Shown piece by piece: positions 2,042 to 46,392 of a stretch of DNA of 55,417 bases. Where the stretch lies: NCBI RefSeq assembly GCF_000787815.1, contig NZ_BBPO01000019.1:61964-117380 (forward strand), in the 5' to 3' direction. This DNA comes from Streptacidiphilus neutrinimicus. GTDB lineage: Bacteria > Actinomycetota > Actinomycetes > Streptomycetales > Streptomycetaceae. Positions within the stretch are counted from its first letter, which is position 1. Each line of letters opens with the position of its first letter. Under the pieces are notes generated by a model. It saw only the letters and a program-made list of their open reading frames with translations. It was not told the origin of the DNA and ran no database searches. The translations under genes and the position numbers were made by a program.

Positions 2042-2410
2042 GGTGACCGGGAGCGTGCCGGCGTCGAAGCAGGTGCGGTCGCCGGTGTGGCAGGCCGCGC
2101 CGAGCTGGTCGACCCGGACCAGGACGGTGTCCCCGTCGCAGTCCAGCGCCACCGACTTGACCAGCTGGACGTGGCCGGAGGTGTCGCCCTTGACCCAGTA
2201 CTCGGAGCGGCTGCGGCTCCAGTAGGTGCAGCGTCCGGTGGTGAGGGTGCGATGCAGCGCCTCGTCGTCCATCCAGCCCATCATCAGCACCTCGCCCGTG
2301 TCGTACTGCTGGGCGACGGCGGGGACCAGCCCGTCGGCGTCGCGCTTGAGGCGGGCGGCGATCGCCGGGTCGAGCTCGGTGGTGTTCGGTGCGGCGGGTG
2401 TGGCGGACAT
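2033..2410 (-). CDS. hisI: Phosphoribosyl-AMP cyclohydrolase
   Basis: HisI, 125 aa, opens the adenine ring of PR-AMP to give ProFAR, the third step of histidine synthesis. The sequence shows [17 protein letters not shown], the [16 protein letters not shown] block and the metal ligands in DCDGDT and [10 protein letters not shown]. There is no fused HisE domain, as is usual in actinobacteria. I chose the internal ATG at 2410 (MSATPAAPN...) because the nine residues upstream are not conserved-looking. The Shine-Dalgarno sequence is weak (GGTGGT). It lies upstream of trpE and is separated from the main his operon by about 9 kb of unrelated genes. Confidence 0.95.
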
Positions 2411-42741: not shown

Positions 42742-42877
42742 GAGGGGCGCGGGGAACTGCGCGACAAGCCACCTGAACTGGTGCGTCGCCGAGCGAGCAG
42801 GGCCATCCGCACTGGGTGGTCGCTCGCGCCCACGCGGCGGAGCCGCATGGTGTTGCAGCCTCGCGCCCCCCGGGGGG
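42742..42877. repeat. Palindromic intergenic element downstream of ftsZ
   Basis: The gap 42710-42896 holds GAGGGGCGCGGGGAACTGCG, which resembles a palindromic intergenic repeat I recall from many Streptomyces genomes. It can fold on itself: GGGGCGCG (42744-42751) with CGCGCCCC (42862-42869), GAGCGA (42791-42796) with TCGCTC (42820-42825), GCGGC-GGA-GCCGC (42834-42846), and a CCCCCCGGGGGG palindrome (42866-42877). It probably also ends or attenuates the ftsZ transcript. Confidence 0.6.
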
Positions 42878-44393: not shown

Positions 44394-45293
44394 TCAAGAC
44401 CGCAGCGCGGGATCCGTCGGTGCGCTCACGTCGTATCCGTGTGCGGACTGCTTCAGCAGTGCGCCCAACACGACGGCCTTGCGCGGGCTCTGCTCGGGAC
44501 TGCCCCAATAGACCGTGCCCGAAGGGCCGGTGAGCGTCAGCTCGATGTCGTCGTACGAGTGGACGACGACGAGCGAGGTGCGCCTCGCGACGGCGGGCGG
44601 GAGGGACTTGGCCACCTCGACCGCGCCCGCCACCAGAACCGTCTCGGGGAACTGAGCGAGCTCGCCCCTCCCGGCGTCCGAGAGCGCGAGCTGCACGACG
44701 GGCACGCCGGGCGGCGGCGTCGACAGCGTCACGAACCGCACGCCCGTCGTGTCCTCCAGCGCGTACCGGCCGTCGGCGCCGCGCACCGCCGCGACCGGCA
44801 CCCGCTCGGTGACGGTGATCCGGACCGAGTGCGGCCAGGAGGTGGACACGGCGGCGTGGTCGACGCGCGGCAGCGCCTTCTCCACCCGCGCCTCCACCGC
44901 GCCGGTGTCCAGTTGCTCCAACGGGCCGCCCAGCGGCACCTGGGCGGCCTGCAGCACCTGAGCCCTGGTCAGCGTCCTGAGCCCGGCCACGGAGACCGTG
45001 CGCACGTCGAAGACCGAGGAGAACCAGACCAGCCAGACGCCGGTGCCGAGCAGCGCGGCGACGAGGCCGCACAGCACGACGATCCCCCGGCGGGACAGCC
45101 TGAGCCGGGGCCGGGGCGGGCGCTCCCCTTCAGGGCCCGCCTTCGGCTCCTCGACCCCGACGCGAGACCCTGAGTCGGAACTCCGGCTGTGCTCGGGCCG
45201 CCCTGCGATCGACGGCACCGTGCGACCCGAGCCAGCACGGCGGAGCCGCAGGGGTGGCAGCCAGCCGGGGTTCCGACTCAGGGTCCTAGCCAC
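44394..45293 (-). CDS. ftsQ: Cell division protein FtsQ
   Basis: 299 aa bitopic protein. A long cytoplasmic N-terminus (about 67 residues) is followed by a membrane helix (RRGIVVLCGLVAALLGTGVWLVWFSSVF, about 68-93), a POTRA domain (VRTVSVAGLRTLTRAQVLQAAQVPLGGPL) and a beta-domain (WPHSVRITVTERVPVAAVRG). It recruits late divisome proteins. The GTG at 45293 overlaps the murG stop (GTGGCTAG), which favours it; a GTG at 45218 is an alternative. The N-terminal codons lie in a 24-bp inverted repeat, so this segment may be extra relative to typical FtsQ (about 260-270 aa in streptomycetes, from memory). Confidence 0.93.
   Translation of the reverse strand: MARTLSRNPGWLPPLRLRRAGSGRTVPSIAGRPEHSRSSDSGSRVGVEEPKAGPEGERPPRPRLRLSRRGIVVLCGLVAALLGTGVWLVWFSSVFDVRTVSVAGLRTLTRAQVLQAAQVPLGGPLEQLDTGAVEARVEKALPRVDHAAVSTSWPHSVRITVTERVPVAAVRGADGRYALEDTTGVRFVTLSTPPPGVPVVQLALSDAGRGELAQFPETVLVAGAVEVAKSLPPAVARRTSLVVVHSYDDIELTLTGPSGTVYWGSPEQSPRKAVVLGALLKQSAHGYDVSAPTDPALRS
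45166..45285. repeat. 24-bp inverted repeat inside the 5' end of ftsQ
   Basis: The arms lie at 45166-45189 and 45262-45285 and match at 23 of 24 positions (single C/T difference). The 72-base middle contains further inverted pieces (GTGCT/AGCAC and GCTCGGG/CCCGAGC). Both arms are in the ftsQ reading frame, near codons 3-11 and 35-43. Confidence 0.85.
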
Positions 45294-46392
45294 GGCGGCG
45301 GCCGCTCCGGTGTGCGTCGACCGCCTCGTAGACCATCTGCGCCAGCAGCTGGTCCGCGTCGCGGCGGCCGAACTCGGCCGCGGCGTGGGACATCTGCCAC
45401 AGGCGCTGCGGGTCGGTGAGCACCGGGAGCACGTTCTGCAGCACCCAGTCCGGGGTGAGCTCGGCGTCGTCGATCAGCAGGCCGCCGCCCGCGCGGACGA
45501 CCGGCTGCGCGTTCAGGCGCTGCTCGCCGTTGCCGATCGGCAGCGGCACGAAGACGCCCGGCAGGCCGACGGCGGCGAGCTCGGCGACGGTCATCGCGCC
45601 GGCCCGGCAGAGCATCAGGTCCGCGGCGGCGTAGGCGAGGTCCATCCGGTCCAGGTACGGCACCGCCCGGTAGGGCGGCATGCCCGGCAGGTCGTTGACG
45701 GGCGGCAGCTCGTTCTTCGGGCCGACCGCGTGCAGGATCTGCACGCCGTACTGCTGCAGCCGCGGCGCGACGGCCTGGACCGTCTCGTTCAGGCGCCGCG
45801 CGCCCTGGGAGCCGCCGGAGACCAGCAGGGTGGGCAGGTTCTGCTCCAGGCCGAAGTACTGCCGCGCCTGCGGGCGGGCCATGCCGCGGTCCAGGTTGGC
45901 GATGGTGTGCCGCAGCGGGATGCCGATGTAGCGGGCCTTCTGGAACTTGCTGTCCGGCGTGGCCACGGCCACGTAGTCGGTGTAGCGGGAGCCGATCTTG
46001 TTGGCGACGCCGGGACGGGCGTTCGCCTCGTGGATGACGATCGGCACGCCGCTGCGCTTGGCCGCGAAGTACGCGGACATCGAGACGTAGCCGCCGAAGC
46101 CGACGACCACGTCCGCCTTGGTGCGCTCCAGGATGTCCTGGACGGCCTTGACGGTGTTGCGGAGGCGGCCGGGCAGGGTGATCAGGTCGCCGGAGGGCTT
46201 GCGCGGCAGGGCGACCTTCGGGATCAGCGCGAGCTCGTAGCCGCGCTCGGGAACCAGCCGCGTCTCCAGCCCCGACTCGGTGCCGAGCGCGGTGATGCCG
46301 ACCGTGGGGTCGTTGCGCCGCAGCGCGTCAGCCAACGCGAGTGCGGGCTCGATATGACCGGCGGTGCCACCGCCGGCGAGGACCACATGCAC
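45286..46392 (-). CDS. murG: UDP-GlcNAc:lipid I N-acetylglucosaminyltransferase
   Basis: MurG, 368 aa, GT28 glycosyltransferase that converts lipid I to lipid II at the inner face of the membrane. The first G-loop is HVVLAGGGTAGHIEPALALA (2-21), the second includes VVVGFGGYVSMSAYFAAKRSGVPIVIHEANARPGVANK, and the third is LLVSGGSQGARRLNE. The UDP-GlcNAc site reads LMLCRAGAMTVAELAAVGLPGVFVPLP and NGEQRLNAQPVVRAGGG. The ATG lies 6 bp after the ftsW stop. Its end overlaps the ftsQ GTG by 8 bases. Confidence 0.98.
   Translation of the reverse strand: MHVVLAGGGTAGHIEPALALADALRRNDPTVGITALGTESGLETRLVPERGYELALIPKVALPRKPSGDLITLPGRLRNTVKAVQDILERTKADVVVGFGGYVSMSAYFAAKRSGVPIVIHEANARPGVANKIGSRYTDYVAVATPDSKFQKARYIGIPLRHTIANLDRGMARPQARQYFGLEQNLPTLLVSGGSQGARRLNETVQAVAPRLQQYGVQILHAVGPKNELPPVNDLPGMPPYRAVPYLDRMDLAYAAADLMLCRAGAMTVAELAAVGLPGVFVPLPIGNGEQRLNAQPVVRAGGGLLIDDAELTPDWVLQNVLPVLTDPQRLWQMSHAAAEFGRRDADQLLAQMVYEAVDAHRSGRRRG

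Follow-up and report, generated by a model that had tools for sequence, protein, structure and literature searches.

Palindromic elements placed in frame within genes are already known from Rickettsia, where the Rickettsia palindromic elements (RPE) are described as palindromes of about 150 bp that interrupt protein genes without breaking the frame (PMC10969869). The insertion sequence IS5 is described as duplicating a PyTAPu target, most often CTAG (PMC5493358), and transposition of the IS1272 type is described as being tied to inverted repeats and as producing no target duplication (PMC5678879). The gene ftsQ is reported to be dispensable for growth in Streptomyces (PMC8748795). The locus described here is a palindromic stretch of 120 nt at the overlap of murG and ftsQ in Streptacidiphilus neutrinimicus, located within a window of 55,417 nucleotides, which is the whole stretch of DNA that was analyzed (contig NZ_BBPO01000019.1, positions 61,964 to 117,380 of the forward strand). 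On the comparisons given below, it is probably a non-autonomous palindromic (MITE-like) element, belonging to a family that is spread through the genus and is also found on Streptomyces plasmids, which entered the overlap between murG and ftsQ in the line of descent leading to this genome.

The features of the locus are shown in Table 1. The two arms of the inverted repeat are 24 nt each, are complementary at 23 of 24 positions and are separated by 72 nt, and the near-perfect repeat that the first-pass annotation had reported from the sequence was confirmed and lies above chance. Its inverted-repeat score, on a scale defined by the authors, is 20 and is the highest in the window, compared with 13 for the runner-up and with 12 to 16 for the best repeats of 20 shuffled windows. 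A search of the whole window for the arm with up to three mismatches returned two places, which are the two arms themselves, and the same search of 100 shuffles returned no occurrence. Inverted repeats of such strength are rare but not unique in the genome, with 18 of comparable strength, the junction repeat included, being found in the 1.6 Mb of genome sequence analyzed together with the window. Six of these 18 (L264, L299, L300, L267, L265 and L291) belong to a second palindrome type, CAGGGGCGCGGGGAACTGCGCGA and its variants. The interior of the insert was also considered as a palindrome of its own and was rejected as not significant (33 of 200 shuffles; 202 and 808 of 1000 in a second test).

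Table 1 Features of the murG-ftsQ junction and loci compared elsewhere in the genus (window coordinates unless a locus is named)
Feature	Position	Strand	Basis
murG	45286..46392	-	Pfam Glyco_transf_28 and Glyco_tran_28_C; junction translations
ftsQ	44394..45293	-	Pfam POTRA_1 at residues 95-164
ftsQ GTG start, overlapping the end of murG	45291..45293	-	Same offset in 14/14 genomes
In-frame GTG inside the insert, alternative start of the first-pass annotation	45216..45218	-	Nothing found in favor of its use as a start
CTAG at the element edge, containing the murG stop TAG	45286..45289	unstranded	Sequence; junction and family comparison
Inserted palindromic element, 120 nt	45166..45285	+ (family orientation = window + strand)	Absent from 13/13 same-genus junctions
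Inverted-repeat arm adjoining the ftsQ body	45166..45189	+	Arm-pair comparison
Inverted-repeat arm adjoining the murG stop	45262..45285	-	Arm pairing; 21/25 identical to the L105 arm
Interior of the insert	45190..45261	+	Sub-stretch 45198-45255 80 % identical to part of a family copy in the same genome (G000:C182:128840-128897)
Loci of the G008/G006/G000 filled/empty comparison	L333 about 2226; L192 319-512; L204		

The murG-ftsQ junctions of the 13 other genomes of the genus were compared, as had been proposed with the original observation, and all 13 join without the 120-nt stretch, which is thereby shown by sequence comparison to be a lineage-specific insertion. In the nearest relative by flanking sequence (G007, with flanks 95 % and 92 % identical), both flanking matches meet at one base. 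The ftsQ gene of G007 begins with GTG GCT GAG ACC GTC GGG, and here 42 different codons stand between GTG GCT and GTC GGG, so that 42 codons replace 2 and the net gain is 120 nt, or 40 codons. There is no stop codon in the ftsQ frame across the insert. The earlier suggestion that FtsQ gained residues from a scar of mobile or recombinational origin is therefore supported, by the absence of the stretch from all 13 relatives and the gain of 40 codons in frame. Conservation of the same N-terminal protein sequence without the repeat, which would have spoken against that suggestion, was looked for and was not seen in the 13 relatives. An assembly or sequencing artefact might be considered, as the genome is a draft of 184 contigs and the insert occurs in one genome only, but the insert is flush and in frame, has genomic composition and resembles the family elements described below, and the completeness of the genome is 99.99 %, which makes an artefact extremely improbable.

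No clean target-site duplication was seen at the insert, and the outer GAGACC of its right arm resembles the native GAGACC of the empty junction. Both observations favor a palindrome that arose once, unrelated to any mobile element, as an inverted duplication produced by a template switch or by end joining that took up filler DNA. Such an origin is also favored by the lack of any other exact copy of the arms in the genome and by their chance-level matches elsewhere. The search for further arm copies proposed in the first-pass annotation was carried out, and the only exact occurrences of the arm core CCTGAGTCGGAAC in the whole 8.4-Mb genome are these two arms, with 10 further places at one mismatch. 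The arm gave nine other one-mismatch matches in 394 genomes of the bacterial family, compared with nine for a reversed control, which is no excess, and a 16-nt piece of it is absent from all 13 relatives of the same genus. Matches to a single arm numbered three in genome contigs and 17 in viral contigs, the stretches examined contained no second arm, and there was no match in plasmids and phages. The arm as a dispersed repeat was rejected on the genome count and the reversed control. Two partial arm matches, in G052 and G154, lie within long open frames and were treated as chance; they came from a search of low sensitivity in which two candidates were scored per genome. Elsewhere in the window, a common intergenic repeat motif (CGGCGGAGCCGCA) with further copies in the genome lies downstream of ftsZ at 42835-42860. 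Against a one-off origin, no local source was seen for the arms or for the interior, and the features that the insert has in common with a family of elements, set out below, would be unexpected.

The insert adjoins murG directly, as originally noted, with the arm edge at 45285 and the murG stop at 45288-45286. The C-terminal residues of MurG are unchanged relative to G007, and the stop codon is TAG here compared with TGA in all 13 relatives, this TAG sitting in the CTAG at the edge of the insert. In each of the 14 genomes the GTG start of ftsQ stands at offset -5 relative to the stop of murG and, because this offset is constant, the GTG at 45293 is the likelier start compared with that at 45218. 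Both of the alternative starts proposed in the first-pass annotation exist, but the one at 45218 lies inside the insert and no support for it as a start was found. What sets this locus apart is that ftsQ overlaps the murG stop, so that the element fell inside a coding frame. Translation of ftsQ would begin at the old GTG and run on across the element, which appears to be read as about 40 extra residues at the N-terminus of FtsQ, extending its cytoplasmic tail. The tail ahead of the LSRRG motif is 65 residues long compared with 19 to 44 in the 13 relatives. The GC content at third positions is 0.79 for the inserted codons and 0.94 for the rest of ftsQ, and nine of the 42 residues encoded in the insert are arginine. 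An insertion in ftsQ would be easier to survive in so far as Streptomyces can grow without the gene, and the extension may be tolerated for this reason and because the length of the tail is variable.

Within its own genome, and leaving aside the match to itself, the insert is most similar (58 nt, 80 % identity, E 1.1e-5) to part of an intergenic repeat, which is a copy of a CTAG-ended family, and following this match led to the palindromic elements described here. Full copies are about 142 to 199 nt and shortened copies about 57 to 97 nt, with arms of about 25 nt. Of 23 registered copies, 10 have CTAG at both ends, nine at one end and four at neither, and arm complementarity is 20 to 24 of 25 positions in 22 of the 23, the one exception being L241, the coordinates of which were mis-registered. 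A covariance model, R1, was built from seven family copies and gave matches at E ≤0.01 in 10 of the 14 genomes of the genus, with family-type arms in nine; the three R1 matches inspected in G009 are of another palindrome type. Mean agreement between arms is 0.89 within a copy, a value lowered by the mis-registered L241, and 0.63 between copies (best of four pairings), and this contrast arises partly by selection since R1 favors paired arms. With one full copy as the query, similar sequence was found on 33 plasmid records, every one from Streptomyces, 10 of which cover at least 80 % of the query. A literature search of limited coverage gave no recognised description of a CTAG-ended palindromic family.

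Two observations suggest that the family is mobile. Identical family copies of 166 nt (L194 and L195) lie at different loci of G007, and the L192/L204 site is filled in G008, shortened in G006 and empty with CTAG kept in G000. The filled/empty comparison covered five loci, of which L192/L204 is the one clean pair and the rest are unclear, with CTAG lacking from the compared genome at L258. The empty site in G000 could represent precise loss instead of a separate insertion in the other genomes. Copies are also inherited, judging by one that is common to G000 and G007.

The insert is likely, on its sequence, to be a diverged member of this family, a reading that is supported short of proof. It shares the near-perfect arms of about 25 nt (23 of 24 positions complementary in the insert) and presence against an empty site (in all 13 relatives), and it has CTAG at one end only, the murG edge, as do nine of the 23 copies; at 120 nt its length lies between those of the full and the shortened copies. 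The arm of L105, an element from another genus, matches the insert arm at 21 of 25 positions, which places the insert arm within the range of arms of the family. L105 is one of the nine chance-level matches to the arm pattern, so that 18 of those 25 positions were selected for. The match counts because L105 turned out to belong to the family and carries the match at its end; its R2 model score is 111.9 bits (E 3.6e-20), and it was outside the training set of that model. L105 is without CTAG at its ends. The insert arm agrees with those of 20 other family copies at no more than 16 of 25 positions, and an arm profile made from six copies gave no match to the insert.

Whole-element models were less informative for the insert, which was listed neither by R1 with default filters at E values up to 10 nor by R2 with default filters. 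With the filters off, R2 matched the insert at 45163-45288 with 34.5 bits, compared with 18.5 to 33.5 bits for 11 unrelated strong repeats and 48.7 to 164.2 bits for three true copies in the 1.6 Mb of genome; the model was not accepted as proof of membership, as it is not discriminating and places the insert hardly above unrelated repeats. A weak palindrome at window positions 2092-2177 scores 21.5 bits with R2, within the range of unrelated repeats. A profile of five independent cores gave the insert -1.7 bits, with 37 of 2000 shuffles as good, and a profile of 10 independent cores gave 0.9 bits, with 0 of 2000 shuffles as good. An earlier high-scoring core profile was not used as proof because it is circular, the insert itself having been used to find the sequences that went into it. 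In a BLAST null of the 1.6 Mb, the 46.4 bits of the insert were reached by 0 of 400 shuffles and by 2 of 400 in which the arms were kept, and an equally good match was found for 32 of 398 real 120-mers of the window; the best genome match of the insert falls in a family copy. Neither a CTAG bordering an arm nor an arm agreeing at 21 of 25 positions with that of L105, a genuine member of the family, would be expected of the one-off palindrome, which is judged unlikely, and both favor a family element at this junction.

The CTAG ends of family copies tend to coincide with stop codons. CTAG has a density of 0.16 per kb in the 1.6 Mb of genome, and 11 of 29 CTAG ends, in nine of 22 registered copies, serve as stop codon to a coding-like frame. 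Counted by strand, the figure for all CTAG is 54 of 509 (binomial p 1e-4), where a coding-like frame is defined by a simple rule of GC content by codon position and the copies are not independent, two being identical. Two of five plasmid copies that were opened touch an annotated stop, these two having been opened because a gene showed under the match. Family copies abut gene stop codons above expectation, and the murG TAG within CTAG fits this habit of the family. In L195 two coding-like frames run towards the element from either side, and both CTAG ends read as their stops. A broader reading is that Streptomycetaceae carry mobile 3'-end palindromes with arms that are largely particular to each copy yet complementary, that what is moved or maintained is the structure and not the sequence of the arms, that these elements insert at TAG stops within CTAG and supply the stop, and that one copy was taken into the FtsQ frame; as a whole this is conceivable but doubtful.

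The first-pass annotation had proposed that the arms form a strong hairpin in mRNA, and the predicted RNA fold of the insert, at -116.9 kcal/mol (z -4), agrees with this, as does a predicted DNA fold with a z of -6.7. A regulatory hairpin of any origin, acting as a translational brake or attenuator and favored by selection at the start of ftsQ, would draw on the stability of these folds and on the presence of family copies at gene 3' ends above expectation. The insert is, however, missing in all 13 relatives, and the mean predicted openness from -20 to +15 around the ftsQ start is 0.30, inside the range of 0.15 to 0.36 in the 13 relatives, so that the brake suggested earlier is not indicated by prediction. 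The sequence also has no T run after the arm, and an Rfam scan of the insert gave sub-threshold matches only, among them one to a microRNA model. Selection for such a regulatory role is considered improbable.

A mobile element of the family remains the preferred explanation, and it would most likely have been moved by a transposase with a preference for CTAG, as in IS5-like elements. The family resembles IS5-family elements and their MITEs in its CTAG ends, and the element is without a transposase; a search of viral contigs with one end pattern for an autonomous partner gave no matches. As regards an IS5-type target, CTAG ends are common, and one empty site carries CTAG and one, at L258, is without it. 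The arms of this family differ between copies, which is not known of ordinary terminal repeats. These matched but copy-specific arms, together with the stop-codon bias, raise the question of how such palindromes move and persist. Elements of the IS1272 type have an inverted repeat as their target, whereas no arms are seen at the empty sites examined here. The likeness to RPE lies in the mode of insertion, a palindromic insert in frame in a protein gene, and the differences are that the host belongs to a different phylum and that some copies of the CTAG-ended family abut stop codons, in contrast to the many RPE copies within genes. With an empty junction in 13 relatives, the murG-ftsQ insert provides a clean natural case, outside the Rickettsiales, of a miniature palindrome within the frame of a conserved cell-division gene.
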